This document shows, piece by piece, positions 19,856 through 41,114 of a stretch of DNA of 64,000 bases. The stretch comes from Bacteroidaceae bacterium (lineage in GTDB: Bacteria > Bacteroidota > Bacteroidia > Bacteroidales > Bacteroidaceae). Location of the stretch: assembly GCA_017448825.1 (NCBI GenBank), contig JAFSKR010000072.1, positions 32,564 through 96,563 on the forward strand, given 5' to 3'. The notes beneath the pieces were generated by a model. The model was not told the DNA's origin and did not search any database. It saw nothing but the letters and a program-made list of their open reading frames with translations. Every line of letters starts with the position of its first letter. Position 1 is the stretch's first letter. A program made the translations under genes and the position numbers.

Positions 19856-22800
19856 ATGCGTAAAATACTGACCATATTGTTTTTTTGTTTGTCTGCGTTG
19901 CTGATGCAGGCACAGATAACCATTGGCGGTAGCGTCTATGGCGGCGGCAACGAGGGTAAAGTCGGTGGCAGCACTACCGTCACCGTCAGAGCTGGCGACC
20001 TGCATAAAGTATTCGGTGGTGCCCGTATGGCTGATGTCGGTGGCAGTGCTTTTGTCAATATCGATGGTGAACACGCCTCTGGCTATATTCTCATTGACTA
20101 CGTCTATGGCGGCAACGACATATCGGGAACGATAGGAACGTCGGAAACACTTCCTGCTGGACTGGAAACAGAAGAACTGACTGAATATAAGGTTGACAAT
20201 ACATGGAATGCCTTCGTGCATATCAGCCGCTCAACAAAGACTGTTACGACGGGTGAAGGCGAAGGTGCAACATCAGAGACTGTTGATGACCAGAAAATCT
20301 ATATAGGTCAGCTATTTGCTGGTGGCAACGGGGACTATACCTATGGTTCAACGTCAACTACTACGGGGGAAGGTGATGAGGCTGTCACGACCACAACCTA
20401 CACCGTCACTGATAAGAAAACAGGGGAGGAAATAGAGACGAGCAGCAGTGAATTCCTCAAACCCGACCTTGCCAAGACCTATCTGCAGCTGCATGGCGGT
20501 TCTATCGTCTATGCATACGGTGGTGGCAACAATGCCACAGTGACGGAGAAGACGGTGATATGCCTTAACAACCCGAGTACTGTGGTGAACGAAATCAAAG
20601 TCGATGATAACGGAGAGTACGATGAGAACGGTACGGATGCCATCACTAAGGACAACCGCACTCAGAATAAGATGGATCTTAATCCGACCTATTCTTATCC
20701 TTCCAGTGACAAGTACCAGATAGGCAGCTTCTTCGGCGGAAACAACACGGCTGAGATGAAGATTCGCCCAGAGTGGCATCTGAAAAAGGGTAAGATTCGC
20801 AACCTCTACTCAGGTGGTAATCGTGGTACCATGACCAGTCCTGATGGGTTGCTGTTAGTTATTGACCCTGCATCTGACGATGACTTGGAAATAGAGAATG
20901 TCTATGGAGGTTGCCGTATGGCTGACGTGCGCCCCCAAGTAAACGGAGTCGATACGCCTACCCAGAACTTGGCAGGTTACCATTTCCCCGACGAATTTTC
21001 TGCCCGTCTGCTGGTCAAAGGTGGTAAAATCACCAATGTCTATGGTGGCAACGACATCACGGGAAAAGTGTATGGCGGTAATGCGGTGGGTGTCTATACC
21101 AGCATCGAAGGAGATATCTATGGCGGTGGCAACGGCTCGTATCCCTATACCGACAACGGCAACCTGACCCCCGCTGCCAAGCAGATATACGAGGACTTCA
21201 TATACGACCCCAATGAGAAGGACGAGGACGGAAACAGCATCTTCGCCTCTTCTCTCGATGCCCTCAACGCCTATCGTCCCAATGCCGAACAGGTGTCCAT
21301 CCGTGTGTGGGGACCCAGTGAAAATGACCCCACTATTATCCGAGGCTCCATCTACTGCGGTGGTAATAGTGCCACGCTGAAACCCAAGGATGGTAAAACC
21401 AACCCCACAGTGGAACTGAAGATTGGCTCTCACGTCATTGCTCAAAACGTCTTCCTTGGCAACAATGGCGAGAATATGGTGAAGACCAATGAAGAAGAGG
21501 GTGACAATTATATCCATGAAGGTGTCCTGCGAACCATGCGGAGAACCGACTTGACGAATGATGGTTCAAAATTCTGTTCTTTAGACTTGACGGATGAAGC
21601 CACCTTCGCCTCCTATATGAACGGTGCAGCCATGGACATCATGCCCAGCGTGGTGTTCGACAAGAAGAATGATGACGGCACAGGAGACCCCGAGACCTAT
21701 CAGGATTATACCTCCTATTTTGGCTCGTTCTATTGTGGTGGCAATGTGGGAAGCATCACAAAAGCAGGATGTGAAGCCATCAACTTCAATTATAAGGTAG
21801 TCATCTTCGAGAAATTGGTGGGTGGGTGCAACAACGCGATTGTGGATGCACAATACGATGAGAGTAACAACCAGTATAATGCTCGCTATGAAGGAGGTCT
21901 TATCGGTGACCCAGAAGCCTCGACAGGCAATAAGATGATGCTTAATCTTTCAGGTTTGAAGATTGAACCAAGACGATGGAAGACAACCCCAGACAACAAA
22001 ACTTTTCCAGATAATTATCTGGAGTGGAACACCTTCCTCAATGGCAACACGGTAGATCCTGTCACCGAAATAGTTTACGACAATGAGCAAGACGAGAATG
22101 GTCAAGTTGTAACAGATGATGAAGGTCACCCTGTGAAATTGAACTATCAGCGGTCAACTGACGACGACCTTGCTCGCCGCTTCGAGGGTGGCAACATCTT
22201 CGGCGGTTGCTATACCAGCGGTATTGTGAGGGGCAACGTGGTCATCAATGTGGATGCCACCCTCGTAGAACGTGAGAAACTCTTTGACGAGGTGGAGTCA
22301 GACGAATTGGGAGAGGAAGTCAGTCTCTATGGAACAGACCAGACTACTGAAACCACTTACCACATCACTAAGCGCAACACTGGTGTCATCCTTGGTCAGC
22401 AAGGTATGGACGTGCTTGGTCGTGCTCTCAGTGTATTTGGCGGTGGCAAAGGTTCTGGCACTGAAGTCTGGGGCAACACGACCATCAACCTGAACAAGGG
22501 TTACACTTTTCAGGTATTCGGTGGCAGTGCAGAAGGCGTCATTGGCAAACCTGACGATGGTGACGGCAATCCTTACTCCTTTAATAGTAAGACCTTCAAA
22601 TACAATCCAAATTACAGTTGCTATGTCAACTTGAGAGGCAACCATGCTGGTGTATCGAAAAAAGCCGACAGCAGCGAGGATATGGCAGAGGCGGAGTTTA
22701 TCTATGGTGGTGGTTTCGAAGGCCCTATCTGCGGCAATACTGTCATCAACTTAGGCAAAGGCCGTATCTTCAACTCCTTTGCCGGTAGTTGTAATGCTGA

Positions 22801-25800
22801 CATCTTAGGACATACCGAGACCTATATCGGTAGGCAGGTGCAGGACGATTATAAAAACGACCTCGGTTCCCATGTTGATAGCGATAATACCTATGCAGAA
22901 GGCTTCCCTTGGATTCGCGACATCGTGTATGGCGGCAACGACTTGGGTGGAGAAATTCTTCGCACAGAAGACTTCTCTGGGCGAGTGAGCGATTTTGCCA
23001 GTACCAAAGTGTACACCTCGACCAGTGCTGAGGCCGCTGCACTCACCACAGCCTCCTCCTACGTGGAGTACCTACAGGGGCGTGCTGATGCCATCTTTGG
23101 TGGTTGCTATGGTACCTACGATTATACCGACGAGAAGTATAGTGCCTACACTTATACAAAAGGGGAAGATGGAATCCCTTCTGGCAAAACAGCGGGCGAC
23201 CCTCGCGAAGGCTCAGGCTTCAAGAAGCCCTATATGCCCAATGCTTTCGTCAACTTCTGCCCCACCTACACCAATGACAACAACGTGGTGAAGAAAGTTT
23301 ACGGTGCGGGACAGGGCTATCCCGAAGACCGTACGGGCGACAAGTTGCAGGATCACAGTTATGTGCTGATTGATATCCCGGAGGGTATCGGGAATTTCGC
23401 CAATATGGAGGTCTTCGGTGCCGGTGCCTATAACGGTTTGGGTATGCGTTTCACTGCAGAGGGAACTTTTGCAGAAGAATTTGACCTCAACGAGGCCTCT
23501 GCTGTCATCGACTTGATGCGGGGTCAGGTGGGCGCGGCCTACGGTGGCAGTTACGCGGAGGGCATCACCCGTCGTACCTTGGTGAATGTGCCAGAAGGAT
23601 CCACCATTAAAATTGGCAGCATTTTTGGTGGTGCCTATGGTAGTGATGACTATTTGCTGCCTTGTGATGTCTATGAAGCCAATGTGAACTATCTGACCAA
23701 GAGTGAAGATGCCTACTTGATTTGGAATCCCGAAAGAACTGATCAGGACGACAATACGATTGGCAACAAACTGATGAAAGGTGCCATCTATGGTGGTAAC
23801 AACAATTCACGACGCACCCTCTATGGCAAAATCAATATCTCTGCTCCCGTCAGACAGAAACATCCAACCTATGGCATGACCACTGCTACCATCTATGGTG
23901 CTGGTTGTGGTTCCTTGACCTGGAGTGAATATACAGAGGTCAACTTGAATGCAGATGCCAGTGTTTGGGAGGTTTATGGCGGTGCTGAGGCTGGAAGTGT
24001 GATGAGTGCCGAAAGTGTACAGAAATACATTAGTATAAATCCCAATAACGTTGATCCAACCAAGTGGCAGGCCGCATGGACCTTAGGAAGTGGCTATGAT
24101 CCCACGTCGTTGGCTGAAGGCTATGCCAATAATCAGTACACCAATCTGAGCAATCAATTGGTAAGAACTGCCGAAATGGATGACAGGGAGAACAAGATTT
24201 ATCGGTATAACACCAATGTCATCATCAACAAAGATGCTTATGTTGGTAATTATGCATACGGTGGTGGACTTGGTAAGGAAGGAGATGCTTTTGTGGGTAG
24301 TGGAGATATCTACGGCACAACCTATATAGCCCTCCTTGGCGGCACGGTGAAAAAGGACCTCTATGCAGCGGGTACGCTGGGTGCCGTCTATAACCTGTTT
24401 GGTGCGGAAAACTACACGGTCAGTTCCAATGCCTACATCGCTGGCGGCACGGTGCGTAACGTGTATGGCGGTGGCTGGAAGGGTGATGTCGGCTATACGA
24501 CAATGACTGTCGATGACGAAGGGGAGACCGCCACTTTCGATGATGCCAACGAGAAGCCTGGAGAGGCACATGTGGTCATCGGTATCCGTGAAGACCAGAC
24601 CGACAAGCCCACCGATTACGGCTTCTATAATGGTGTGCCCGCCATCCAGCGTAATGCCTACGGCGGTGGTGAGGGCGGTGCCATATTCGGTCAGGCTTAC
24701 CTGACACTGAACAACGGCTATGTGGGCTATGAGTATAAGGACGGAACCTATCAGGAGAAAATCGACGACGATACCTACTATGTCAATAACGAATATGCTG
24801 GCGACAACCGTCTGAAAGACTGCGGAAATATGTTTGGTGGCGGTTATGATGTACGAAGCAGCGTGGATGTCACCAATGTCACGATGTGGGGCGGTATAGT
24901 TCGCAACAGCATACATGGTGGCGGTGAGATTGCCACTATCGGTCGTGGTGCCATTGAGGCCAGTGGCCCCTTAAACTCCGTTCGTAAACTGAAAGGCATC
25001 TACAAGCCAGGAAAGACCAACGTCGAGATGTTCAACGGTCATGTGCTTCGTAATGTCTTCGGTGGCGGTAAGGGCTACAATACTTTCGGTTATGGTCAGC
25101 AGGGTACGCTCTATATGGATGGCTACGTGTTCGGACAGACAGAGGTGCATGTTCATGGAGGTGAAATCGGTACCGATGAGGGCTTGGCCGATGGCTATGG
25201 CAACGTGTTTGGCGGTGGCGATGTGGGCTACGTTTACAGTTCCAGTGTGTATAGCGACAAGACCAAAGCGAAGACCAGTACAGGCTCTCCTGGACACATC
25301 TATTATTATAATAGTGCTGGCAATCTGACGGAAGACTGTAAGGTGGTTGTGGCACCGTATCTGCAGGTGAAGAATACCCCCGTCGTCTATGCTGGTCAGA
25401 CTTATAACAAGTATGACTATGTGCCGACGGACTATCTGAACACCTTGCCGAAGAAAGACAGCGACGGTAACTATACTGGTGGATGGGAAAACCTCTTCAC
25501 AGGCGATGCTGATGGTGAGGAGGAACGTGGCATCTATATCCACAACGCAGTGTTTGCTGGTGGTAACGTGTCATCGAACAGTGACCAGACTTACGCCAAC
25601 GCAACGACCGTTTACGGCAATACCACCGCTACGCTCTACGATGTCTATCATCGTGACTTCATCACCGTGGGTACGGAGCATACTGGTGGACTTTATGGTG
25701 GCGGCAACCTCTCCGTGGTTGATGGCTACCGTGAGTTGAACATCACCAACTATGGCACCGACTACTACGGACTGAAGCAGACCATCAGTATTGATGAGTA

Positions 25801-28800: not shown

Positions 28801-31800
28801 TGTCATCAATGTCCATCTCGACTTGGAGAGCGGTGTGCCTCAAATCGGTACGCTCAATCCGCCAGCCACCGTATTGCCGGGCAACGCCATCGGACTGAAA
28901 GCCCCTGATGTGAACCCCGGACTCTATGAGGTGCTCACCAGCGGATGGGAGCTCTATGCCACACACGACGATGCCTACAACCATCGCAATGGCATGGACT
29001 TTGAGAACAACAAAACGCCCCTCTATTGGTACCAGAACCAGAAGAATTATGTGGCGTTCTATTCGAAGACTTACCTCGGCAAGACCTACTCCAACCCTGT
29101 GCCGCTCTCGGTGGCCAACTATCACGACCTGGATGCCGTGATGCAGGACAAGGAGCACCATTTGTATGTGGACCGCTCTGACGTGGATCGTCCCAGCAAG
29201 ATATACATTGACAACCGCCAATGTAAGAGCGACGAGACAAAGAACGAACTCGACCTGCTGAAGGACTTCTACGACTTGAGTGTGCTCAACAGTTCATCTA
29301 CGGGAGTTGCTGACGGAAAGGTGACGGCCGAAGGTGCGCTGAATGGTCATGCCCTGTTGGGTAACCATGTGTATGCAGGCAACAACTTGGAGTTCTTCCT
29401 CAACAGTGATGTCAGTCCGAAGGCTACCTACACGGTGGATGAAAATACTGCCACCTGGTCGTCCATCGGCAGCGGCTCCAACGATCCCTGCTTCTCGGGC
29501 ACACTGCACGGTGATGGCCATACCATCAGCGGACTCGACCACTCGCTGTTCGACAAGCTCTGCGGCGAGGTCTATAACCTTGGTGTCACAGGTTCGTTCA
29601 CGGGTGCTGGCGTTGCCGAGACTGGCGAAGGTTATGTGGAGAACTGCTGGGTGACGACCACTGGAACACCAACGCAAGGTGAGGGTCACTATGCCGTCTT
29701 CGGCAACCCATCAAGAGAGAGCGGGGATGAGCGAGGACCCATTCAGGTGGTGAACTGCTACTATCCCGAGAGCAACGCCTACACCGAGCCGACATCCACC
29801 ATCCACGGTCAGGCTACGCAGATGCCCGACAAGGCGTTCTACAACGGTACCGTGGCATACAACCTAAACGGTTTCTACCTGAAGAAGCGCTATTACGATA
29901 ATACGACGTGGACGGGCGATAAGACATCGTACAACTACCTGCCGTTGGCAGCCGATGGCAGTCTGGCCGAGACGATGAGCACCGCCTGGTATCCCAACAC
30001 CTACGCGCTCTATCAGCCCAAGGGAACAGAAGAAGCACCTTACCTCGGCTATGTGGAGAGTCGCTTCTACGATGGCGATTTCGTCTATGCCAACGGCACT
30101 ATTCCCGAAAGCACGAACGTCCGTCTGAGGACAGTCACCGTGGGTGAGGGAGAAGACGCTACGACCAAGACGTACTACACCCCCATCTGGCCCGACGACT
30201 ACCTCTTCTTCGGACAGACACTCACCTACGGACACGTGGATGGTCGCACCCATCAGGCGACCCCGTCAGCTATCAGCCGCAGCAACGAGCGTGTGGTGAC
30301 TTCTGCCGATGGCAACCGCGTTTACCGTGCACCAGCCTATTACCAAAACGGAACGATGGGTGTGGCTCACTTCAATTCGAATGCCGTCTTCGCCCAAACC
30401 AAGAAGAACGATGCCAGCGTCACCGCTTACCAAAACATGACGGCCATCGACTTCACTGGCTACCACGACGATGGCTACCAATATGGCAGCGTGACAGCAT
30501 CGGGCAGTTTCTTCCCACCGCTGCTTGACGACGATGGTCTCACCCGTTTCCAAAACGTTGACCTGACACGTAACCTGCTGGTTTATACCGGCACCAGCAC
30601 AGCGGCTGCCCAAAAGACGGGCAATACGGTGAGCGCCTACCTGCCCGATGGAACCTATCAGGAGACCAACAGTACCTACCACACGGTAGCAGTTTGGGAC
30701 AGGTATGCTGATGCCATTCGTGGACACTGGGTACAACTGCAGGAGGGACAGTATGTGGCACCTCGTGACCATCTGTTAGTGGACAAGGCAGACTTCAACT
30801 GTCCTATCAGCTACACCTTCGCCGATGGTAAACGTATGTGGTACCAGCGTGAGCCCAGCAACTATGCAGGTCAGAAGACGGTGACGACCGAAGAAAGCGG
30901 CACAACAACAACGACCGTGGTCTTTGACAGTCGTGCTGGTTGGGAAGGTATCAGTCTGCCGTTCAGTGCCGAGCTGGTGACCACACAAGACAAGGGTGAA
31001 ATCACGCACTTCTATAAAGGTAGCACCACGGGACATGAGTACTGGCTGCGCACCTACGAAGGGGGTACACTCTCGGAAACCGTCTTTGAGGCGGCCTTCA
31101 ACCCTCTTGATGCAGGTGCCAACACCAAGGACTATACCAACACCTTCCTGTGGGACTACTATTACAGCAAGGATGACTATCAGGACAAGAACAAGGATCA
31201 ATATCAGCAAGACTATTACAGCAGCGACTATCTGCAAAGCAGGTATCCTGTCACCGACTATCCTTATGGCGATGCCGGTATGCCTTACCTGATTGGTTTC
31301 CCAGGTAACCGCTATTATGAGTTCGACCTTAGCGGTGAGTGGACTCCCGATTACCGTCTCCTCGATAAGACCATCGAGCATCCGGGCAAGCAAGTCATCA
31401 CCTTCGCCTCGGCAGAGGGAATCACCATTGGCGTGAGCGATAATGAGATGGGAGGTGTGTCCAACGATGGCTACACCTTCAAGCCCAACTACCTGAACAA
31501 GGAGATGACGGATACCTATATGCTGAACGACGAGGGCAGTAGCTTCATGAAGCAAGCAGCAGCCACGGCAGCTGTTCCATTCCGTCCATACTTTGTGCTT
31601 GCCAGTGCAGGTGCCAAGAAGCGGGCGGCAGAGCAAATCGTCTTTAACACGGTAGATTCTTCTTTCGACCATGAAGAGGAAGCCGACCCGACAGAAGGAG
31701 AGAGTGGTCGTCTGACCATCACGGGTAAGAAGCACACCATCATCGTGTCATCGTTGCTCCAGAAGGAAGTTCCTGTGCGCATCGTGAGTGTCAGCGGCAT

Positions 31801-31903
31801 CACCATCGCGACGTTCACCATCCAACCAGGCGAAACCATTGAGACCCATGTTCCGATAGCTGGTGTTTACATCGTCAATCGAACGAAAATCTCGGTGAAA
31901 TAG
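19856..31903 (+). CDS. Giant secreted YGGGN-repeat surface protein (4015 residues)
   Basis: One uninterrupted 12-kb frame encodes an exported protein (signal MRKILTILFFCLSALLMQAQ). Residues about 22-1950 are built from irregular units of 20-45 residues carrying 'VYGGGN', 'IFGGCY', 'YGGND' or similar, each followed by a beta strand such as 'TTVTVRAG' or 'NVVINVD'. This predicts a long beta-solenoid. Residues about 1950-3000 contain a second unit type with '(D)R.YF' and 'I.G..Y..G' (for example 'VNCVTCIVDGVEYEQGTYV'). About 3200-3300 is a GLUG-like segment ('LHGDGHTISGLDHSLFDKL'). The last 80 residues ('VPVRIVSVSGITIATFTI') resemble a type-A sorting domain for type IX secretion. It starts 10 bases after the tip-like gene. 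No enzyme motif is visible. Surface display or adhesion is inferred. Confidence 0.85.
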   Translation: MRKILTILFFCLSALLMQAQITIGGSVYGGGNEGKVGGSTTVTVRAGDLHKVFGGARMADVGGSAFVNIDGEHASGYILIDYVYGGNDISGTIGTSETLPAGLETEELTEYKVDNTWNAFVHISRSTKTVTTGEGEGATSETVDDQKIYIGQLFAGGNGDYTYGSTSTTTGEGDEAVTTTTYTVTDKKTGEEIETSSSEFLKPDLAKTYLQLHGGSIVYAYGGGNNATVTEKTVICLNNPSTVVNEIKVDDNGEYDENGTDAITKDNRTQNKMDLNPTYSYPSSDKYQIGSFFGGNNTAEMKIRPEWHLKKGKIRNLYSGGNRGTMTSPDGLLLVIDPASDDDLEIENVYGGCRMADVRPQVNGVDTPTQNLAGYHFPDEFSARLLVKGGKITNVYGGNDITGKVYGGNAVGVYTSIEGDIYGGGNGSYPYTDNGNLTPAAKQIYEDFIYDPNEKDEDGNSIFASSLDALNAYRPNAEQVSIRVWGPSENDPTIIRGSIYCGGNSATLKPKDGKTNPTVELKIGSHVIAQNVFLGNNGENMVKTNEEEGDNYIHEGVLRTMRRTDLTNDGSKFCSLDLTDEATFASYMNGAAMDIMPSVVFDKKNDDGTGDPETYQDYTSYFGSFYCGGNVGSITKAGCEAINFNYKVVIFEKLVGGCNNAIVDAQYDESNNQYNARYEGGLIGDPEASTGNKMMLNLSGLKIEPRRWKTTPDNKTFPDNYLEWNTFLNGNTVDPVTEIVYDNEQDENGQVVTDDEGHPVKLNYQRSTDDDLARRFEGGNIFGGCYTSGIVRGNVVINVDATLVEREKLFDEVESDELGEEVSLYGTDQTTETTYHITKRNTGVILGQQGMDVLGRALSVFGGGKGSGTEVWGNTTINLNKGYTFQVFGGSAEGVIGKPDDGDGNPYSFNSKTFKYNPNYSCYVNLRGNHAGVSKKADSSEDMAEAEFIYGGGFEGPICGNTVINLGKGRIFNSFAGSCNADILGHTETYIGRQVQDDYKNDLGSHVDSDNTYAEGFPWIRDIVYGGNDLGGEILRTEDFSGRVSDFASTKVYTSTSAEAAALTTASSYVEYLQGRADAIFGGCYGTYDYTDEKYSAYTYTKGEDGIPSGKTAGDPREGSGFKKPYMPNAFVNFCPTYTNDNNVVKKVYGAGQGYPEDRTGDKLQDHSYVLIDIPEGIGNFANMEVFGAGAYNGLGMRFTAEGTFAEEFDLNEASAVIDLMRGQVGAAYGGSYAEGITRRTLVNVPEGSTIKIGSIFGGAYGSDDYLLPCDVYEANVNYLTKSEDAYLIWNPERTDQDDNTIGNKLMKGAIYGGNNNSRRTLYGKINISAPVRQKHPTYGMTTATIYGAGCGSLTWSEYTEVNLNADASVWEVYGGAEAGSVMSAESVQKYISINPNNVDPTKWQAAWTLGSGYDPTSLAEGYANNQYTNLSNQLVRTAEMDDRENKIYRYNTNVIINKDAYVGNYAYGGGLGKEGDAFVGSGDIYGTTYIALLGGTVKKDLYAAGTLGAVYNLFGAENYTVSSNAYIAGGTVRNVYGGGWKGDVGYTTMTVDDEGETATFDDANEKPGEAHVVIGIREDQTDKPTDYGFYNGVPAIQRNAYGGGEGGAIFGQAYLTLNNGYVGYEYKDGTYQEKIDDDTYYVNNEYAGDNRLKDCGNMFGGGYDVRSSVDVTNVTMWGGIVRNSIHGGGEIATIGRGAIEASGPLNSVRKLKGIYKPGKTNVEMFNGHVLRNVFGGGKGYNTFGYGQQGTLYMDGYVFGQTEVHVHGGEIGTDEGLADGYGNVFGGGDVGYVYSSSVYSDKTKAKTSTGSPGHIYYYNSAGNLTEDCKVVVAPYLQVKNTPVVYAGQTYNKYDYVPTDYLNTLPKKDSDGNYTGGWENLFTGDADGEEERGIYIHNAVFAGGNVSSNSDQTYANATTVYGNTTATLYDVYHRDFITVGTEHTGGLYGGGNLSVVDGYRELNITNYGTDYYGLKQTISIDEYRGLSNRERAYFQLEYKCIAASETNAAGKTGITIDGVFYETGERLEEEKYLKLLNNEDEAIAQRVKDSFEPYGFCSIYAGRLLNTIQRADLCGVFGSRMVLQGAKDRVAEVGEDIDYTINRVGELSLNQQHSVRLADEGTDATHGNYFGIYSLVNYLGNLTSDVRFGNSYVNGNGVTDTEKTYYSYKSANPTSSDRNKGQSSNQVALASGVFLELTTENSTKEKKDYGYVTGVIELDLINVKKDDVGGGFVYAKNEHRVPKYYPNKSNVILSEYNNPKTVGDIELRDEARTYKRYYYTNENLPTGDEAEGATVISGDDSHVFQTMAWQTSGNFIHPSKRIVDDCYPTNNAYIIGSDNYSEAHYWYVKGEVYIYDQKVSAYTGSANAYSKEVHLPLTITAASHGKLQLLNVKPNLYAYKTDKDGQTVKIGTAGSDGKPIDKVWVNNESDSYGLNDVISWWDWHQLSAKDRQYFVTQTYVNCVTCIVDGVEYEQGTYVMDQNDYDHFMGEPHVISDSQGETFQDDGGHDIGKTFVFRSSNNISHENGYVLTFDMNSPKVWDDYFSPVSGSSATGKMMKSDYQALFTDGLSDAQKQAIIDAWREGPTFTPTETGVYGKRSYNVGEIITEATYLDAGEGQDKMERAYVAIESVTYSYNGTMKTVNSGTAISLTEFNSIGTSQSSFREAFFCTNSVKLTNENYMLYGELKTADEIAAMKAIEGKSATDDEIDAALTPAYICTQDGEYGGQRFETGKNYGAIQAWSSLPEADRTKFNYNFDALDLLTNTDYLKVYPDVITSPATETTVAAFHSPYTDQVKVEYQAVFKKDGVDVKFNGANLDDGAILTNEQFETIRNDKRHYTHVETRNNGDNVYIAKENFIYLGTPYGIGQVVDADVYRANTQYVEVVVFETAGEWYYCYEDYKDENGQTVAKGTQITKADYGNVPNYQQYFIIQGQEPTETTTLYVSRESNAYDVLKEKIITVVYQYTYYEDEDDGSVKMTNELHVINVHLDLESGVPQIGTLNPPATVLPGNAIGLKAPDVNPGLYEVLTSGWELYATHDDAYNHRNGMDFENNKTPLYWYQNQKNYVAFYSKTYLGKTYSNPVPLSVANYHDLDAVMQDKEHHLYVDRSDVDRPSKIYIDNRQCKSDETKNELDLLKDFYDLSVLNSSSTGVADGKVTAEGALNGHALLGNHVYAGNNLEFFLNSDVSPKATYTVDENTATWSSIGSGSNDPCFSGTLHGDGHTISGLDHSLFDKLCGEVYNLGVTGSFTGAGVAETGEGYVENCWVTTTGTPTQGEGHYAVFGNPSRESGDERGPIQVVNCYYPESNAYTEPTSTIHGQATQMPDKAFYNGTVAYNLNGFYLKKRYYDNTTWTGDKTSYNYLPLAADGSLAETMSTAWYPNTYALYQPKGTEEAPYLGYVESRFYDGDFVYANGTIPESTNVRLRTVTVGEGEDATTKTYYTPIWPDDYLFFGQTLTYGHVDGRTHQATPSAISRSNERVVTSADGNRVYRAPAYYQNGTMGVAHFNSNAVFAQTKKNDASVTAYQNMTAIDFTGYHDDGYQYGSVTASGSFFPPLLDDDGLTRFQNVDLTRNLLVYTGTSTAAAQKTGNTVSAYLPDGTYQETNSTYHTVAVWDRYADAIRGHWVQLQEGQYVAPRDHLLVDKADFNCPISYTFADGKRMWYQREPSNYAGQKTVTTEESGTTTTTVVFDSRAGWEGISLPFSAELVTTQDKGEITHFYKGSTTGHEYWLRTYEGGTLSETVFEAAFNPLDAGANTKDYTNTFLWDYYYSKDDYQDKNKDQYQQDYYSSDYLQSRYPVTDYPYGDAGMPYLIGFPGNRYYEFDLSGEWTPDYRLLDKTIEHPGKQVITFASAEGITIGVSDNEMGGVSNDGYTFKPNYLNKEMTDTYMLNDEGSSFMKQAAATAAVPFRPYFVLASAGAKKRAAEQIVFNTVDSSFDHEEEADPTEGESGRLTITGKKHTIIVSSLLQKEVPVRIVSVSGITIATFTIQPGETIETHVPIAGVYIVNRTKISVK

Positions 31904-32003
31904 CCTCCTGCGGTTTGAGAGTGCATCGCAAACTCATTACTTCTGAGGAAGTACTAAGAAGGGAAAAGGAAAAAAAGAAATTGCCCGCAAGGGTTCAAAG
32001 ATA

Positions 32004-35000
32004 ATGAAGATGAAAGAACAAGGATTTTTAAGCAGATATTACATAGGAAAACTCATGGCTGTTTTGGTCATGATGGCTACGGTTGTGGGAATGCGTGGAC
32101 AAAATTTTTCTGGCATCTGGTATATTGCCAACAATACCAATCATAACTCAACCACAGACCAGCGATGGTATATGGTGCCAGCCAAAGACCCACAACAACC
32201 CAATGCTATTGATGCCTATTATTCGCCCAACCACAACACCACCCCTGGCGACTCCGAAAAACCCTTCCTGACCACCTACCAAACGAACAAAGACTCCAAC
32301 TCCATCTGGATTATCGCACCCAGTGGTGTGGAAGGCAACTACTATATCATACATGCTATAACAGGCAAATACGTAATCTATGAGCCTCCTCTACCTAATG
32401 ATGGTGATAATCAACGCAAATCGATGCACCTGCAGACCATCGATAATAGCACATATAACCCTGGCACAAACAATAACTTCACATTCAAAGTCACTGGTAC
32501 TTCTACCAGTAGCCCCATCAACATACAACCCCAAAGTCGTTCTGACTGGTATTTCAATCCTGCGGGCAGCAACAAATCTACTTATTATGGTCAAGATTCA
32601 CCGCTATATCGCAATGGAATCATTGGCATCTACAACAGAAGCGATGGTGACTCCTGGTGGTTTCTTGAGGATGCCAAACTTCCTGCCCCCACAATCCATA
32701 TCGACGATGAGGCAGGAACCTATACTTTCAGTTATCCTAACAACATTCTGCCTGATGGCTACTCGTTCCTCTTTACTACCAATGGCAATGACCCCACGGT
32801 AGACGGTACAGGTGTCACCACTTGGGATGCTACACCTCAGTCTATTGTCGGCGATTGCCACATCAAGGCGGTGATTGCCCGTTATGGTGTGGTACTATCG
32901 GAGGTGGCAGAGCAGATTGTGGATATGCCTGACCCGCCAACCATCACTTACGACAACACGACAGGCAATGTGACCATATCGTCAGCCACGACTGATGCCA
33001 GCATCTACTATACCACCGACGGAAGCACAACTCCTACTTCATCTTCTACTTTGTATAGTGCTCCTTTCAGCATCACAGGCGAAACTACCATCAAGGCCAT
33101 TGCCGTCAAGGGTGGCTTTAGAAACTCTGAAGTGGCTACAGTGACCATCAGTAAATTGGCAGCCCCAACAGTTACATTCAACGATGCCAATCAAACAGTT
33201 AGCATCACCAAGAACAGTGATGTGGAGGGAGCAACGACCTACTATACCGATGACAGTACAGATCCGACGGCAGCATCCACAGAATACACAAGCCCTATTT
33301 CCCTGACAGCGACAACAACCATTAAGGCAAGGAACATCAAGGACGGATATATCAATTCTGATGTGACAAGCCTGACTGTTACCAAGTTGGCTTCTTTACC
33401 GACTATCACAATATCGGGCAACAGTGCTACATTGTCTTACGCAGGAGATAGTGATGCCACCATCCATTACACGACCGATGGCACGACACCCACATCGGAG
33501 TCAAGCACATATACCACGGCTATTTCTCTAAGCGGTGACCAGAAATACACCATCAAGGCCATTGCCACAAAGGCTGAATACCTCCATTCTGACGTAGCGA
33601 CGGAGGTGGTGGATAAGCGTACCTCCATACCAGCTCCAACCATTACCGTTGATGGCAACAGCGTAACCATTACTGCAAACGATGCTGGCGACGAGATATA
33701 CTACACCACGGACGAGACAGAGCCAACGACTTCCACTCTGACACACTTCACGGGCACAGGAACCTTCAACCTTGTAGATGGAAGTAATTATACTGTCAAA
33801 GCCATAGCCTCTAATGGCACTCTCTCTTCGTCAGTGGTTACACAAACCGTCGATTTGAGTGATTTAGGGTACTCCGGCATCTATTATATCCAGAGCAGCA
33901 ATCGGGAGTACTATATGTATCCTGTAGGTGGCGAAAGCACATACGTCAAAACTGCTAAGAATGCAGATAAGAATGCTATTTGGAAAATAGAGAAGGTGGG
34001 CGACTACTACCGCATCATCCATTATGAGGATGGAAAATACTTGGTGGCTGCGGACGCAACGGTAGAAACGAACACGGTGTCACTTGTCGAGACAAATAGC
34101 CCAGGCGAGACCGCTCTGTTTGAGATTACGCGTAAAAGCGGCAGCGAGACAAATCTCTTAGACCAAATCATCTTGTTCAAACCGAAAGCAGCAGCCAATG
34201 ATAATGGTCATATCTATCTGAACACGACTCAAGGCAATGACGGCACCCATACCATCGGTCTATATGATAATACTGGTAGTTCGGAATGGAGACTGGGAAG
34301 AGTTCCTGCAAAGCCCACGTTCACGGTGGCAGATCTCAAAGTAACCATGACGAATACCTTGGGTGATATCTATTACACCACAGACGGAGCGGATCCTACG
34401 ACAAGTTCTACAAACGGAAAGTCTGTGATGCTGGCATACGGACCATCATATACCGTGAAGGCCATTAGCGTCTATACGGATCCCAAATCAGGCGGAACAT
34501 GGCAATCGGACATTGCGAGTAAGACTGTAAAAGTGGACGTGTTAGCACCTACATTCTCTGTCTCAGGGAACACTGTCTATCTAAGAAGCTCGCAGGCAGG
34601 TGTAGAATTCCGTTATACGACTGATGGGGGTATTTCTTTGACCCCAACAACAGGCGAATCGTATGATAATAATACAGGCATAACCTTGGCAAGTGGCAAT
34701 GTGTACACTCTTAAGGCTTTGGCATATAATACAGTTTCAGGTACCGTCTATCCTTCAGTCGTCAGTACTATTGAAGTTGATTTGCGTGAAGCCACCGAAA
34801 TATCCAGCCTTACAGAAATTACCAGTGCAACGGGCAATTATAAGTTGACAGCCAACAATACCTACAGTTCAAGCAACAAGCCCGCTGTCACTACTTTCAG
34901 CGGCATCCTCGATGGCGGAGACTTCATCATCAGCGACCTTACAGCCCCTCTCTTTGAGACATTAGACGGCGGTACGGTGCACAACGTCACATTCGACAAT

Positions 35001-38000
35001 ATTGAAATCAGTAGTGGCAATACTAATGGTGATGCCGGGGCTGTATGCAGCGAGGCCAAGGGAACGGCGCGTATCTATAACGTCGGCGTGCTTGCTACTG
35101 GCAGTACGGTAGATGAGAACGGTCATGTAACCACTAATAGCAGTACCATTGGCGCAAGTCGCTATGTGGGAGGCCTGGTGGGTCTGCTTGACGGCTCTGC
35201 GCGCGTCATCAACTGCTACAGTTATGCAGACATCACAGGTGGCGACAAAGTGGGCGGCATTGTGGGCTATAACAACGTGGCCACTACTGCCACCAATCTC
35301 AAGACTATGGTGATGAACTGTATGTTCTATGGAGACATCACAGAGGGTACGAATAAGGCTCCCATCTATAACGGGCAGATTATCACAAACATTAATAATA
35401 ATAAGGGCGTGAGCAACTTCAATTTCTTCTGTGCAGAGGCTTCTTACGTGCAGAATCTGGATATTGACACCTACAACTGTGCCCTGATGGCTGAGAAACG
35501 CTTCTTGCAGCGCTTCGAGTTTTTCCGCCACCTGCTCAACAGCAATCGTGAACTGGCGGCATGGTGGGCAACGGGCAATATGAACAAAGACCAGATGATG
35601 AAGTGGGTGATGGAGCCGTCGCAAATAGGCACCGCTAAGCCCTATCCCATCTTGAAAGAACCAGGCAGGTATCATTCCGTGGTTAATATCGACAACCTTG
35701 ACGTGGATAACGCTACATCAAACAGTATCGGCACCAAGTTGGCGACACTGACTGTCCACATTCAGATGGGCAGTGGCGGAGCCAAGTTCGGCGCTCCTAC
35801 AGGTGCAGGTATTAAATCGGGAAAAGAAACCCTTTACCTCGACATCACAGATAAAGACCCCGGCCACTATAATTTCAACTACTACAAGGTACAACTGCCC
35901 TATTATAACGATGTGGGAACAGGTAATTATACCACAGCCTCTGATGGGACAAGCCGTGTGGTGGCAGGTTGGAAAATTGTCAATTTCCATGGTGGCGGAA
36001 CTGCTGGAACCTTTACCACAGGCAGTAATGATGCACCGGCTTACAACTTTGCCGACCGCAAATGTACCAACAAAGACTACTATGGCACTGGTGGCAGTAA
36101 CCGCATCTTCAATCAGGGAGCCTATTTCGACGTACCTGAGGGAGTCTCAGAAATCACGATTGAACCTTACTGGGCAAAGTGTGTCTATCTCTCTGATGCC
36201 ACTCCTGATGTGGTGTATAAATCAGATATGACGGCGGCATATAACGTAACAGCCGTTGCTGGAGGTCAGCGATATGTGGACGGTAGTAGTTACAGTATAA
36301 ATGGCGTGAGCCAAAAGGTCTATACTTCGATGAACACTGCGGTGAGTGCGCTTTCGACCAATTCGTCGTACACCCCTTACGACTATGCTGTGGTGTTGGT
36401 GGGCAACTATCATCAGTACAACGGTATTGAGGGAGAAAAACCTTATACCGTGATGTCCATCGACCTTGATGGTGATAACGAACCCGACAACTCATTTTTG
36501 CTCCGATTTGACGGACGTACAGCCTTCCACCCCGTAAGATACGACTTCCTGAACCTGATGGGTCTTGGTATGGCACAGAAATCTACTAGCGGTACTGGTT
36601 CCTACAATTTCGGTATCATGCAACCTAAGGGCTGGTTCGAGGTGACTAATACTGCCTTGTTCCGTGTCACGCAATTTGAATACAGCCCTTCTGGTCGCAG
36701 CAAGAAGCCAATCATCCTTCATGGCGGTGTGATGGAACAGTGGGTATGCTTGCAGGGTAACCCTGGCGACCGTGTCGAATACTTCCATGTAGGTGGCAAC
36801 GTCTGGTTCAAGGAGTTCCATTTAGGCATACATCAAGATAATCAAAATAAGACGCCACATCCACCAGTGTCAGTAACAGGTGGTGACTTTGACTATTTCT
36901 ACCTTACTGGTGCTTATAGGGCGGACGTCGAAATTTATGATGACAATGCTGAGTGTTATATCAATGGTGGGCGTTTTGGCATCATGGCAGGGACTGGCAT
37001 GGAAGGACTTGGCACAACCTCTGACAATGGTAACATCACCTGGCAGATAGACAATGCTGACATCACCGAGTTCTACGGTGGCGGCATCAATGCCGCACAC
37101 CCAGCTATCGGCAACATCAGCACCACTATTTCAAACAGCCGAGTCACCCTGTTCTGTGGTGGCCCAAAGTTCGGTGATATGACAGGTGGCAAGACAGTTA
37201 CGACGAATGCTACTAACTGTACCTTCGGCACCTATTTCGGTGCTGGCTACGGTGGTAATTCCTACAGCCGTGAGGCTCCAAATAATCGAACCCAGACAAT
37301 GAATACAGATTGGAACAATTGGATAACAACAAATTATAAGCAGGAATACAAATCGGGATTTGGCGGTGTTTCCACCCAATTCGATTACCAGTTCCTGCCC
37401 ATGTCCGGCAATGCTAACAATGTCTGTCGTATCTTTATAGAATATGTAAAGTTCTCCTTGGCCACTACTCACAATGTCATTTCAAACCTTACGGGCTGTA
37501 CGGTGACAGGCAACTTCTATGGTGGTGGCAATCTTGGCAAGGTAGATGGAAATGTTACATCAACTCTTACCAACTGTACTGTAAATGGTGATGCCTTTGG
37601 CGCAGGTTTCTCAGCTTCTCTTCCTTCTGTCGAAGTCGATAGTATCGGCTTTAGGACGGAGCCTTACTACTATCAGAATCTCGGTAATTACCGAATAGGT
37701 GTGAAAGGCCCAACCGAGACTTATACTTGGGAACATGCCGAAACGGTCAATAATACGGCATCGGCAATCAACAAGGATGACCATATTCTTTACACCACAG
37801 AGAATCTGACGACCCTTGGAACCGTTACTGGTACTGCTACGCTGAATATCAAGGGTGCAACCACGGTGGAGGGTAGCGTCTATGGCGGTGGCTGCGAGGC
37901 TGATGTGATGGGAAATACTCGTGTGGAGATGGAGGATGGTTATATCTTTAACGGTATCTTTGGCGGCGGACTTTCCGGTTCGGTGGGCACGTTCACAAGG

Positions 38001-41000
38001 TCAACGGCAGATGCTGATGTGACAGTTTTTGGCCATGAAGCTCATGAAGGCTGCATTGGCAAACCTGTGTCATGTGCAGAAAACACTGGCAAATGTACGG
38101 TTGTTGTTACTGGCGGTCAGATTGGTCCTATAGAGGTGACAACAAAAGGTATGACAAGGTCTGTCGAGGAAGGTGGCCCTGTTTCGGAAGGCTGGGTATG
38201 GGGCGCAGGCTGTGGTTTAATCGAGGATCCAGCGACTCACCCAGATACGCACTTCAAGACATACGTGAATGAAACTGAAGTGACCATCGGTGGTGATGCC
38301 TTTATTCTGGAGTCCATCATAGGCGGTGGTGAGTTCGGACGTGTGCTTGGCAATACGCACGTAACGATTCAGGATGCCTGTCAGATTGGTGTGGGAGAAA
38401 ACCAGACAGAAACCGTGAATGGTGTGCTCAAGCCCAAGCGCTATGCAGATGAAAAGTTCATCAATCCGCTCGAAACACCTGTCACCAATTCGAATGCTCT
38501 GGTCGAGTGTTCGCACTTCCCTTATGGAAGGAATGTCGGCACTACAGAATCCCCTAATTGGGTATATGAGACTTTCGACCCTTACTACGATAAATATTAT
38601 GTAACAGGAGCATACAAAGATAACATTCCCGAAGACTTCTCCCTTGGCAGCACTTCGCATGCATCGGACGGTAAGACGTGGATTGGCTGTGTGTTTGGCG
38701 GTGGTTCTGGCTATTATCCTTATGAAAAGAGTGATGGTACAGGCTACGGATGGCTTCGTTCGGCAGGTTGGGTGGAAGGCAATTCCTTGGTAGAAATCAA
38801 GGGTGGTCATATCCTGACCAATGTCTATGGTGCGAATGAATATACCGACGTTAAGGGCAGTAGTACGGTGAGGATGTCTGGCGGTACAATTGGTGTGCCG
38901 CGTACCTTGGAACAGATAAAGGAAAGCCCAAATACAGGCAACCTTTATGGTGGAGGAAAGGGTGACCCGCGTACTTATTTCAATACGATGACCAACGTCG
39001 GAAGCGTGGAAATAGAGGTTACCGGCGGTATCATCTACGGCTCTCTCTATGGTGGTGGCGAGGACGGTCACGTACTGGGCAATGTCGTGACGACCATCAG
39101 TAAGGAAACTGGTGAAGGAACGTCAGCACCTGTTATAGGCTGTGACGGCACTTCTGGAGACGACGGCAATGTGTTTGGTGGTGGTAAAGGTGCCTCTACC
39201 GCACTGACTGCTGGAGTCGTGGGTGGTAATGTTAATCTTACCATTTTGGATGGTTCTATTAAAGGTTCCGTCTATGGTGGAGGACAAGTAGCATCGGTAG
39301 GTACTCACTTCACAGCCCCTTATGACGATAACTATGGCAAGATGCAGGAGGGTGAAGAGCATGGTTGCATCACCGTCAATTTGAAAGGTGGCACCATTGA
39401 GCAGAATGTCTATGGCGGCTGTATGGGTATGTTGGAAAATGCTGCTTTGGGCATATCGAAGGATGTCAGTGTGAACTTGAATAAAGATGTGGATGACACA
39501 GCACGAGGGTGTGCTGTGAAGGGGGAGATTTTTGGCTGTAACAACGTGAACAGCACCCCTCAAGGCGCGGTGACGGTGCATATCTATAAGACTCAAAATG
39601 CAGCGGCAGACCAGATTGTCAATACGGCGGCTTCTGGTGAAACACCTGCTGTAACTAATGCTAAGGTGTCAGGAAGATATGATGTGAAGGCTGTTTATGG
39701 TGGTGGTAACTTGGCTGCTTACGAACCAACAAAGGCTACTGCTACCACTGATGATGAGAAAGATCAGGCTTATGCCCATGTTATCATAGAGGGTTGCGGC
39801 AGTACCAGCATCCAGCAGGTGTATGGTGGTGGTAATGCAGCTTCGACTCCTGCCACGATGGTGGATGTGGATGGAACGTTCGAGATTGAAGAGGTGTTTG
39901 GTGGTGGCAATGGTAAGGATGATATATCCAAGGACGCCGGGAAGACGTATATCAAAAATCCTGGTGCTAACGTGGGTTTCAAGGATTACTGGGACTATGA
40001 GAAGGATGAGGATATAGAAGACTATAACACCAAGGCGAAACGACAGAGTGACACATTCCTAAGTAATTATGTCTATGGCTCTGGCAAGGCTCGTGTAAAC
40101 ATTCATGGTGGCAAGGTGCATCGTGTGTATGGTGGTTCCAACACCAAGGGCAATGTACGCATTACGGCGGTGACCATGCTGGAGGATGAGAGCGGTTGTG
40201 ATTTTGATGTGGACGAGGCATACGGTGGCGGCAAGAGTGCTCCAATGGATGCTGAGTCGAGATTGGAGATGGCGTGCATACCAGGTTTGAAGGTGGCGTA
40301 TGGTGGCGCAGAGAATGCTGAAATCGAGGGTGATGTGAACCTGACCATCACTAATGGAACCTTCGACCGTGTGTTTGGTGGCAATAATGTGAGCGGATAT
40401 ATTAAGGGCACCATCACTGTGAACATTGAGGAGACAGGATGCAAGCCTATCATCATCGGACAACTTTATGGTGGTGGCAATCAGGCACCTTACACGGCAC
40501 CTTTCAAAGAAGGCTCCACCACAGAAAGAGAAGACGGCCCAACCATCAATGTGCGCTCCTTCACCAGTATTGGTGAGGTGTATGGCGGTGGGTATGGAAA
40601 GACGGCTGTGGTGACTGGCGACACTCATGTGAACATCAACGTGTGCGAGGGCAAGTATAAAGATGGTACCTATACCTATTCGGATCATTCTACAATAGCG
40701 GACAAGACTGGTAATCAGGCGATTCAATTCACTGAGTATGCTCGTACTGACGATGGCGATTTTGTTGAGGAAAATGGTAGCCGAAAAGTGGAGACCATCA
40801 CAGAACATCTGTATCTGCCTCTTCATGATGCAAACAAAATTGGTGCTATCAACAGGGTGTTTGGCGGTGGTAACGCAGCAAAGGTGGATGGTGATACGTA
40901 TGTGTATATTGGCACGAAAAGCAATGAGGTGTTCAAGACGCCTGTTACGAAAACCGTCAAAGTGAATAATGAAGACCAAGAGGTGAATACTACAGACGAA

Positions 41001-41114
41001 GACCGTACACAGGAAGTCAAGGGCGCTGATATTAGAGACAATGTCTATGGCGGTGGCAACAAAGCGGAAGTGACGGGAAAGACGAACGTGACTATCGGCA
41101 AAGAGAAAGAGTAG
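32004..41114 (+). CDS. Giant secreted protein: lectin-like, chitobiase-C-like, GLUG and YGGGN repeats (3036 residues)
   Basis: This is a second giant frame; the signal anchor is 'LMAVLVMMATVVGMRGQ' (ending about residue 33). Modules in order: a beta-trefoil/ricin-like segment (about 34-225, 'GIWYIANN', 'YYIIHAITGKYVIYE'); five chitobiase-C-terminal-like Ig repeats (about 229-620) each with 'IYYTTDGSTTPT' or close; another trefoil-like segment (about 622-767); two more Ig repeats (to about 922); a GLUG-like part ('INCYSYADITGGDKVGGIVG', about 930-1110); then a long YGGG solenoid region (about 1630-3036). The protein stops within the solenoid pattern ('VYGGGNKAEVTGKTNVTIGK' plus three residues) with no recognisable sorting tail, unlike its neighbour. 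It lies 100 bases after the first giant gene and 6 before the next. Glycan or surface binding is suggested by the trefoil-like parts. Confidence 0.83.
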   Translation: MKMKEQGFLSRYYIGKLMAVLVMMATVVGMRGQNFSGIWYIANNTNHNSTTDQRWYMVPAKDPQQPNAIDAYYSPNHNTTPGDSEKPFLTTYQTNKDSNSIWIIAPSGVEGNYYIIHAITGKYVIYEPPLPNDGDNQRKSMHLQTIDNSTYNPGTNNNFTFKVTGTSTSSPINIQPQSRSDWYFNPAGSNKSTYYGQDSPLYRNGIIGIYNRSDGDSWWFLEDAKLPAPTIHIDDEAGTYTFSYPNNILPDGYSFLFTTNGNDPTVDGTGVTTWDATPQSIVGDCHIKAVIARYGVVLSEVAEQIVDMPDPPTITYDNTTGNVTISSATTDASIYYTTDGSTTPTSSSTLYSAPFSITGETTIKAIAVKGGFRNSEVATVTISKLAAPTVTFNDANQTVSITKNSDVEGATTYYTDDSTDPTAASTEYTSPISLTATTTIKARNIKDGYINSDVTSLTVTKLASLPTITISGNSATLSYAGDSDATIHYTTDGTTPTSESSTYTTAISLSGDQKYTIKAIATKAEYLHSDVATEVVDKRTSIPAPTITVDGNSVTITANDAGDEIYYTTDETEPTTSTLTHFTGTGTFNLVDGSNYTVKAIASNGTLSSSVVTQTVDLSDLGYSGIYYIQSSNREYYMYPVGGESTYVKTAKNADKNAIWKIEKVGDYYRIIHYEDGKYLVAADATVETNTVSLVETNSPGETALFEITRKSGSETNLLDQIILFKPKAAANDNGHIYLNTTQGNDGTHTIGLYDNTGSSEWRLGRVPAKPTFTVADLKVTMTNTLGDIYYTTDGADPTTSSTNGKSVMLAYGPSYTVKAISVYTDPKSGGTWQSDIASKTVKVDVLAPTFSVSGNTVYLRSSQAGVEFRYTTDGGISLTPTTGESYDNNTGITLASGNVYTLKALAYNTVSGTVYPSVVSTIEVDLREATEISSLTEITSATGNYKLTANNTYSSSNKPAVTTFSGILDGGDFIISDLTAPLFETLDGGTVHNVTFDNIEISSGNTNGDAGAVCSEAKGTARIYNVGVLATGSTVDENGHVTTNSSTIGASRYVGGLVGLLDGSARVINCYSYADITGGDKVGGIVGYNNVATTATNLKTMVMNCMFYGDITEGTNKAPIYNGQIITNINNNKGVSNFNFFCAEASYVQNLDIDTYNCALMAEKRFLQRFEFFRHLLNSNRELAAWWATGNMNKDQMMKWVMEPSQIGTAKPYPILKEPGRYHSVVNIDNLDVDNATSNSIGTKLATLTVHIQMGSGGAKFGAPTGAGIKSGKETLYLDITDKDPGHYNFNYYKVQLPYYNDVGTGNYTTASDGTSRVVAGWKIVNFHGGGTAGTFTTGSNDAPAYNFADRKCTNKDYYGTGGSNRIFNQGAYFDVPEGVSEITIEPYWAKCVYLSDATPDVVYKSDMTAAYNVTAVAGGQRYVDGSSYSINGVSQKVYTSMNTAVSALSTNSSYTPYDYAVVLVGNYHQYNGIEGEKPYTVMSIDLDGDNEPDNSFLLRFDGRTAFHPVRYDFLNLMGLGMAQKSTSGTGSYNFGIMQPKGWFEVTNTALFRVTQFEYSPSGRSKKPIILHGGVMEQWVCLQGNPGDRVEYFHVGGNVWFKEFHLGIHQDNQNKTPHPPVSVTGGDFDYFYLTGAYRADVEIYDDNAECYINGGRFGIMAGTGMEGLGTTSDNGNITWQIDNADITEFYGGGINAAHPAIGNISTTISNSRVTLFCGGPKFGDMTGGKTVTTNATNCTFGTYFGAGYGGNSYSREAPNNRTQTMNTDWNNWITTNYKQEYKSGFGGVSTQFDYQFLPMSGNANNVCRIFIEYVKFSLATTHNVISNLTGCTVTGNFYGGGNLGKVDGNVTSTLTNCTVNGDAFGAGFSASLPSVEVDSIGFRTEPYYYQNLGNYRIGVKGPTETYTWEHAETVNNTASAINKDDHILYTTENLTTLGTVTGTATLNIKGATTVEGSVYGGGCEADVMGNTRVEMEDGYIFNGIFGGGLSGSVGTFTRSTADADVTVFGHEAHEGCIGKPVSCAENTGKCTVVVTGGQIGPIEVTTKGMTRSVEEGGPVSEGWVWGAGCGLIEDPATHPDTHFKTYVNETEVTIGGDAFILESIIGGGEFGRVLGNTHVTIQDACQIGVGENQTETVNGVLKPKRYADEKFINPLETPVTNSNALVECSHFPYGRNVGTTESPNWVYETFDPYYDKYYVTGAYKDNIPEDFSLGSTSHASDGKTWIGCVFGGGSGYYPYEKSDGTGYGWLRSAGWVEGNSLVEIKGGHILTNVYGANEYTDVKGSSTVRMSGGTIGVPRTLEQIKESPNTGNLYGGGKGDPRTYFNTMTNVGSVEIEVTGGIIYGSLYGGGEDGHVLGNVVTTISKETGEGTSAPVIGCDGTSGDDGNVFGGGKGASTALTAGVVGGNVNLTILDGSIKGSVYGGGQVASVGTHFTAPYDDNYGKMQEGEEHGCITVNLKGGTIEQNVYGGCMGMLENAALGISKDVSVNLNKDVDDTARGCAVKGEIFGCNNVNSTPQGAVTVHIYKTQNAAADQIVNTAASGETPAVTNAKVSGRYDVKAVYGGGNLAAYEPTKATATTDDEKDQAYAHVIIEGCGSTSIQQVYGGGNAASTPATMVDVDGTFEIEEVFGGGNGKDDISKDAGKTYIKNPGANVGFKDYWDYEKDEDIEDYNTKAKRQSDTFLSNYVYGSGKARVNIHGGKVHRVYGGSNTKGNVRITAVTMLEDESGCDFDVDEAYGGGKSAPMDAESRLEMACIPGLKVAYGGAENAEIEGDVNLTITNGTFDRVFGGNNVSGYIKGTITVNIEETGCKPIIIGQLYGGGNQAPYTAPFKEGSTTEREDGPTINVRSFTSIGEVYGGGYGKTAVVTGDTHVNINVCEGKYKDGTYTYSDHSTIADKTGNQAIQFTEYARTDDGDFVEENGSRKVETITEHLYLPLHDANKIGAINRVFGGGNAAKVDGDTYVYIGTKSNEVFKTPVTKTVKVNNEDQEVNTTDEDRTQEVKGADIRDNVYGGGNKAEVTGKTNVTIGKEKE

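Follow-up and report, generated by a model that had tools for sequence, protein, structure and literature searches.

The closest described relatives of the locus examined here are pilus gene clusters of the Bacteroidales. In the portions of two reports on which we draw, the mfa cluster of Porphyromonas gingivalis ends in mfa5, which encodes a large tip protein exported by the type IX secretion system (T9SS), and some strains carry two tandem mfa5 genes (PMC7835359, PMC8313007). Bacteroidales type V pili follow an anchor, stalk and tip lipoprotein logic in which the C-terminus of an incoming subunit docks, and what these pili bind is described as little known in the part of the source used here (PMC12632263). 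The locus of interest lies in a 64,000-nucleotide stretch of DNA (the window) on contig JAFSKR010000072.1 of a Bacteroidaceae bacterium, whose genome (2.95 Mb, 75 contigs) is 86% complete. Its genes stand on the + strand in the order DUF3575, fimA4, fimA5, an Mfa2-type anchor, fimA7, fimA8, giant 1, giant 2 and DUF5106. A literature search covering listings and the openings of abstracts returned no description of such a locus.

We tentatively propose, at slightly less than even confidence, that this is a type-V-pilus-like locus ending in two giant secreted proteins, which would form an adhesive fiber that acts with the pilus. A sequence-only reading of the window had reported the two giant frames, a spacing of 10 nt between fimA8 and giant 1 (19846-19855) and of 100 nt between the giants (31904-32003), and a signal peptide on each. 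All of these hold: both frames start with ATG, and both N-termini are signal-peptide-like by eye. The same reading knew of no described pilus system with partners like these; on this point it was wrong, the mfa cluster with Mfa5 being a precedent. The features of the locus are as follows.

11213 to 11295, + strand: three Bacteroidales-type promoter-like boxes before the first gene, TTTG-N19/20-TAnnTTTG with one mismatch each, called by consensus match alone.
11293 to 12135, + strand: DUF3575 protein, first gene of the block (Pfam PF12099, E=2.2e-44); its true start is probably an ATG inside this open reading frame (ORF), for example that at 11335.
12165 to 13937, + strand: fimA4, pilin-like lipoprotein with a lipobox-like N-terminus by eye and no Pfam or credible PDB match.
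13983 to 15722, + strand: fimA5, pilin-like lipoprotein, likewise with a lipobox-like N-terminus by eye and no Pfam or credible PDB match.
15738 to 16850, + strand: Mfa2/FimB-type anchor lipoprotein (PF08842 in orthologues; window copy E=0.024).
16940 to 18688, + strand: fimA7, pilin-like lipoprotein before fimA8 with a TTG start, read from the sequence.
18674 to 18685, + strand: FYNW C-terminal tail of the gene before fimA8 ([YF]N[WF] in the loci of relatives).
18751 to 19845, + strand: fimA8, lipoprotein and constant neighbor of giant 1, assigned by linkage and by Mfa_like_1 matches in its family.
19856 to 31903, + strand: giant 1, an open frame of 4015 aa, with its C-terminal part found in relatives.
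19916 to 19993, + strand: N-terminal edge coil of giant 1, ITIGGSVYGGGN..., directly after the signal peptide; relatives with intact starts also have an early coil.
19937 to 25708, + strand: YGGGN coil region of giant 1, from motif positions.
31691 to 31900, + strand: T9SS type A sorting domain of giant 1 (TIGR04183; window copy E=0.0014, 18.6 bits).
32004 to 41114, + strand: giant 2, an open frame of 3036 aa.
32946 to 33863, + strand: CHB_HEX_C_1 / Fn3_assoc modules of giant 2 (E=4.6e-50 and 4.3e-53; outer limits set by eye).
34890 to 35237, + strand: M26_N / GLUG-like stretch of giant 2 (M26_N E=4.8e-9; GLUG E=0.014, sub-threshold).
37068 to 41063, + strand: YGGGN coil region of giant 2, from motif positions.
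41016 to 41111, + strand: C-terminal edge coil of giant 2, VKGADIRDNVYGGGNKAEVTGKTNVTIGKEKE, with no sorting domain; most comparable chains share this end type (by eye).
41121 to 41939, + strand: DUF5106 protein with a thioredoxin-like CxxC motif, 6 nt past giant 2 (PF17127 E=3.3e-26; thioredoxin E=0.003, sub-threshold).

The likeness to the Mfa1 pilus and Mfa5 is one of arrangement. As far as the consulted portions of those reports go, both systems have pilin or pilin-like genes clustered with a gene for an Mfa2 anchor, and at the cluster end both encode a secreted protein that is far larger, is no pilin and has a C-terminal domain of the T9SS type (here giant 1). Two large genes can stand in tandem (mfa5 in some strains there, giants 1 and 2 here). 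However, Mfa5 measures 1228 aa in the strain studied and has von Willebrand factor (vWF) and immunoglobulin (Ig)-like domains (PMC7835359, PMC8313007), whereas giant 1 has about 3400-4400 aa, YGGGN coils and a C-terminal half that is assigned to no family. Unlike Mfa5, giant 2 has no sorting domain, and between giant 1 and Mfa5 we found no homology other than the type of sorting domain. Pfam yielded no vWF domain, Ig-like domain or Mfa5 match over the whole of giant 1 at E<=1, and profiles of its residues 740-1400 and 2960-4015 retrieved no Mfa5 chain from the PDB at the same threshold. We regard giant 1 as apparently analogous to Mfa5 in place, size, export route and pairing, and do not file it in the Mfa5 family. 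Giant 1 also resembles T9SS type A cargo (TIGR04183) in its signal-peptide-like start and C-terminal sorting domain, and the locus departs from such cargo in the size of the giants, in their linkage to pilin genes and in the lack of the domain from giant 2. Compared with Bacteroidales type V pili that carry tip pilins, the putative binding parts here are separate giant proteins.

One line of evidence for our proposal is the recurrence of this gene order. The second half of giant 1 matches 23 of 81 genomes, its own included, all of the same genus. We mapped 17 same-genus loci (the window's own and 16 others), leaving out one split over contigs (G039) and two with weak matches (G004, G012), and counting apart the distant giants of G029, G030 and G033. 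The fimA8 gene lies directly before giant 1 in 17 of 17, at gaps of 8-56 nt. A YGGGN-bearing giant 2 is present in 16 of the 17, and the contig of the other (G001) stops within giant 1. Sixteen loci have Mfa2 (all but G014), 14 have DUF3575 and 11 have DUF5106, with most of those lacking the last running off the sequence at that end. Sequence past giant 1 is available for 16 loci; in 14 of them the next large ORF starts at a distance of -4 to 109 nt, with four 4-nt overlaps among them. As for the distant YGGGN giants of G029, G030 and G033, they span 3229-6335 aa. The 6296-aa giant of G030 has a fimA8-like gene immediately before it and a further frame of 4294 aa after it.

The linkage, whose absence from relatives would have told against the sequence-only reading by its own standard, is conserved across many genera. 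At E<1e-100, the C-terminal part of giant 1 occurs in 44 of 301 genomes of the family. Other genera contributed 20 loci in 19 genomes. In 19 of these loci giant 1 is preceded by fimA8, the 20th being cut by the contig start, and in 18 it is followed by a YGGGN or giant 2-type ORF, with G158 stopping at a contig end. When the repeats of giant 2 were used as the query against 295 genomes of the order, they found their own genome and four others, the latter in two other families; in these four, which were thus chosen through the giant 2 search, fimA8 adjoins giant 1 (4/4) and a YGGGN giant 2 is near (4/4). Across a phylum-wide sample of 395 genomes, the only match at E<=1e-15 was the window's own. 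One side observation concerns G297, in which two giant 1 loci with different upstream cassettes lie about 32 kb apart on one contig. Records for 22 loci are all metagenome-assembled genomes (MAGs) or uncultured organisms. Nine titles name a ruminant stomach compartment or the rumen, nine more carry the prefix RUG, which we take to stand for rumen uncultured genomes, and four show neither.

Searching in the other direction, from fimA8, gives a similar picture. FimA8-profile matches at E<=1e-8 occur in 49 of the 301 family genomes, of which 46 remain after three weak ones (E 2e-10 to 2e-9) are set aside; since linked copies went into the profile, it may overlook remote relatives that are unlinked. 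Linkage to giant 1 was seen in 44 of these 46 genomes. In 40 of them, the C-terminal part of giant 1 follows fimA8 at a distance of 2.9-17.3 kb, with contig and strand shared (the divergent giant of G030 included), and in G182, G247, G305 and G313 giant 1 begins right after fimA8 and then runs off the contig. Giant 1 without fimA8 is found in three genomes, in each of which the contig begins or stops in or beside giant 1.

A different explanation for this linkage is that the giants form a surface adhesin fiber of their own, anchored by the sorting domain of giant 1, and are only encoded and regulated beside the pilus. We consider this a serious but somewhat doubtful possibility. The sorting domain could suffice for surface delivery, the gene content upstream of fimA8 changes greatly from genus to genus while giant 1 keeps to about 3400-4400 aa, and giant 2 often stands 0.5-2 kb from giant 1 in other genera. 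Moreover, G014 has fimA8 and both giants with no window-type shaft genes upstream. Set against this are the constancy of the pilin-like fimA8 as a neighbor and a C-terminal -YNW end on the preceding gene product, which is kept even where other upstream sequence no longer matches. Together, these two features suggest a physical interface.

The -YNW end was counted in 37 loci, those of 38 in which an upstream gene lies within 200 nt of fimA8. In 33 of these, the last residues encoded by that upstream gene are [YF]N[WF], whereas only 34 of all 522 ORFs longer than 300 aa in these loci do so, the 33 included. The four loci that depart from this pattern are G019 and G255, both with HNW, G029a, with KNW, and G030, which has no matching end; in G233, the 38th locus, the upstream gene likewise has a YNW end but lies at a distance of 232 nt. 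Because the C-termini of type V pilins dock into a neighboring subunit, according to the part of the report used here (PMC12632263), the -YNW tail could be the strand that docks to FimA8.

The sequence-only reading called the small subunits fimbrial, a description that profiles back for the anchor, back weakly for the FimA8 family and fail to back for FimA4, FimA5 and FimA7. PF08842 (Mfa2) is matched by 10 of 16 anchor orthologues at E<=1 (best E=3.6e-8). Mfa_like_1 is found in 5 of 34 FimA8 family members scanned (of 36; best E=1.4e-6), with no match in the window copy, and the FimA8 profile reaches PDB entry 3sy6 weakly, at E=0.042. Neither Pfam, the PDB nor profile-profile comparison supported FimA4, FimA5 and FimA7 as fimbrillins, the scan having covered 22 of 37 sequences, relatives included. 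We infer that they are fimbrillins from their lipoboxes, size and place, the lipobox-like starts of the small subunits having been called by eye or by regular expression. In 11 other-genus loci with no Mfa2 match (G224 apart), 3-8 ORFs of at least 250 aa stand upstream, mostly with lipobox-like starts.

Under our proposal, the small subunits, all lipoproteins by their N-terminal signature, would comprise the Mfa2-type anchor, stalk-like subunits, a -YNW-ended subunit and then FimA8. FimA8 would be the likeliest link between the giants and the pilus, perhaps by accepting the -YNW tail of the subunit before it as a docking strand. The variable modules of giant 2 (CHB_HEX_C_1/Fn3_assoc, or a ricin-type lectin or MBG in some relatives) might lie at the far end, and the likely role would be adhesion to plant, protozoal or host glycans.

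Giant 1 appears to be a T9SS type A substrate, given its sorting domain and the presence of GldM/PorM, the T9SS machinery gene examined, in 45 of 45 genomes of the genus, the window's included. With the last 90 residues as the query, TIGR04183 was matched at E<=1 by 21 of 21 giant 1 C-termini, including that of the window (best E=7.2e-8), after two of 22 loci in which giant 1 is cut short had been left out. Compared with the PDB, the domain retrieved just designed Ig-like proteins at E 0.1-0.21. The conserved T9SS domain at this C-terminus also speaks against reading the giants as exoproteins of the two-partner-secretion or contact-toxin type. Their length and solenoid-like repeats do recall proteins of the filamentous-haemagglutinin type. 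No two-partner-secretion, toxin or immunity family emerged from the Pfam and NCBIfam scans made, and we rejected this explanation as very improbable. Three loci (G034, G013 and G096) have one more ORF between giant 1 and the coil-bearing giant 2; it is coil-free, measures 1158-1327 aa and has a C-terminus that is sorting-domain-like by eye.

The long repeat stretches described for both giants are present in part of each chain. The motif [VIL][YF]GG[GCN] occurs 16 times in each giant, compared with means of 0.18 (giant 1) and 0.14 (giant 2) and a maximum of 2 in 500 residue shuffles, and its extent is limited to about residues 28-1950 of giant 1 and 1690-3036 of giant 2. The description of the units as irregular and 20-45 residues long also needs correcting: motif-to-motif gaps across 75 related proteins peak at 25-27 residues (181 gaps), though many gaps are longer; in the same proteins, the consensus of the unit is confined to about its first ten positions. 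A spacing of 25-27 residues suits a right-handed beta-helix. Because of this peak, we infer that the YGGGN regions of both giants fold as long beta-solenoids with coils of about 25-27 residues. For giant 1 residues 2960-4015, the best PDB match of the profile reached only E=0.3.

The coils also reach the edges of the chains. The first coil lies at residues 17-95 in every giant 1 protein whose start is intact (36 of 36). Among 31 complete coil-bearing chains that follow giant 1 (8 others that run off the sequenced stretch having been left out), 25 end in a terminal coil of the type GADIRGNVYGGGNxAEVTGxTxVxIGK, as judged by eye, and some of these also carry a short P/T-rich tail. Five more (G036, G096, G175 twice and G224) end in a related coil, and there a later chain starts on a coil; one (G297a) has an end of another type. 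The same split of coil-bearing chains is seen in G434, which belongs to another family. Uncapped solenoid ends are able to join. For this reason, and because coils stand at the chain edges, giant 1 at its start and giant 2 at its end may join through their edges into one long fiber. By extension, one could imagine a composite organelle in which FimA8 is the tip adaptor of a type V pilus and carries one continuous beta-solenoid of separately exported, edge-stacked giant chains, an elaboration that we consider unlikely. In such an organelle, the uncapped giant 1 start and giant 2 end would be plug and socket, chains could be split, extended or swapped, and giant 2, lacking an export signal, would have to travel alongside giant 1 or by another route.

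The two giants vary to different degrees. Over 16 relatives, giant 1 aligns along 93-100% of its length at 44-55% identity, whereas giant 2 aligns with 15 relatives that have one along 35-100% at 29-49% identity (the G026 copy being cut by a contig end and that of G003 split into three ORFs). Where one coil-bearing giant 2 chain is complete and unsplit, its length is between 1680 and 5352 aa. The whole of giant 1 drew no match from Pfam or NCBIfam at E<=1. Giant 2, in contrast, contains one M26_N stretch and six stretches each of CHB_HEX_C_1 and Fn3_assoc, with ricin-lectin and GLUG matches below threshold, and its M26_N/GLUG-like stretch matches IgA1 protease chains (E=2.1e-4). Among eight chosen giant 2-type N-terminal parts, CHB_HEX_C_1 is found in 7, M26_N in 6, a ricin lectin in 1 and MBG in 1. 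This pattern of a conserved giant 1 and a variable giant 2 fits a constant carrier with a variable binding part.

The same size, repeats and modules could instead belong to a shed matrix, sheath or scaffold, for example one that holds glycan-degrading enzymes, and glycoside hydrolase genes do lie on both sides of the block in the window. We judge this reading quite improbable, given that the giants are linked to pilin-like genes and that families of the cohesin, dockerin and S-layer types are absent from the Pfam and NCBIfam scans made. The flanking genes themselves are alpha-galactosidase-, GH31- and arabinanase-like (weakly so) at 521-6995 and GH31- and GH32-like at 42966-46517.

The claim that no promoter box separates these genes stands for the gap between fimA8 and giant 1 and needs qualifying for that between the giants, where a Bacteroidales-type box with one mismatch occupies 31914-31945 (P about 0.015, from 1000 shuffles of the letters there). 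When the spacer could be 18-21 nt long, as for this box, the one-mismatch boxes on the + strand of 10900-42500 are the three at 11213-11295, one at 20315 inside giant 1 and that at 31914. Among 14 same-genus loci with DUF3575, a box lies upstream of that gene in 10 and in the fimA8-giant 1 gap in none. Because genes overlap in relatives, co-transcription is favored. We consider a single transcript likely in the window's genus, with a second promoter possible in the window's own genome, and less likely in other genera because the gap between the giants is often long there. Upstream of DUF3575, an imperfect 16-nt inverted repeat (10986-11001 / 11220-11235, 218 nt apart) has a right arm that overlaps a promoter-like box; of 100 letter shuffles, one produced a pair of this kind. 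An invertible promoter was considered and rejected, since a stricter test (14 nt, one mismatch) retained pairs only in G034 and G019 of the 14 loci, unlike each other, and none in the window.

Several observations weigh against our proposal. Gene linkage by itself does not amount to physical attachment, FimA8 matches fimbrillin profiles weakly, FimA4, FimA5 and FimA7 match none, and the profile of giant 1 residues 740-1400 found no PDB match. The sorting domain of the window scores below the curated cut-off of 23 bits, TIGR04183 was matched by only 13 of 23 C-terminal parts when these were cut shorter, and giant 2 has no recognized T9SS signal (no NCBIfam match). Linkage also loosens in places. 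Within the genus, giant 1 is separated from the next ORF by 1428 nt in G014 and 625 nt in G015, G038 and G007 have no DUF5106 after giant 2 where the sequence would show it, no fimA8-like gene was found for the distant giants of G029b and G033, and that of G029a is one gene away. In other genera, only 6 of 18 loci have their next ORF of more than 600 aa at 109 nt or less from giant 1, the others having it 242-4782 nt away, Mfa2 is present in just 8 of 20, and G255 has no giant 2 in the 17 kb past giant 1. The giant 2 of G530 is transcribed divergently from the DUF3575-to-giant 1 block, still adjacent to it, and fimA8 and giant 1 lie on different contigs in two of the 46 genomes (G224, G115). 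Finally, the distant giants of G029b and G030 do not begin on a coil. This last point and the long gaps between the giants in other genera have slightly lowered our confidence in both a fiber acting with the pilus and the stacked organelle.

Among neighboring features, the CxxC motif of the DUF5106 protein recurs in relatives (by eye), and giant 1 carries invariant cysteines; a role as a folding helper for giant 1 is possible. Farther downstream, tandem arrays with 9-, 18- and 34-nt units (TAACTTCGC-like) occupy 50624-50833 between two ORFs on the - strand, and near-identical promoter-like boxes, TTTCACTTTTTC...ACCTTTG, lie at 58170-58200 (- strand) and 58282-58312 (+ strand) near the starts of divergent ORFs.

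If our proposal is true, the type V pili would gain a further surface system, one kept over several Bacteroidales genera that include many MAGs from ruminant stomachs. It would come with named interfaces, the -YNW tail with FimA8 and the end of giant 2 with the start of giant 1, and with a puzzle of export, namely the route to the surface for a giant that has no sorting signal. If stacking is also true, the result would be a modular protein fiber of some 7000 residues.
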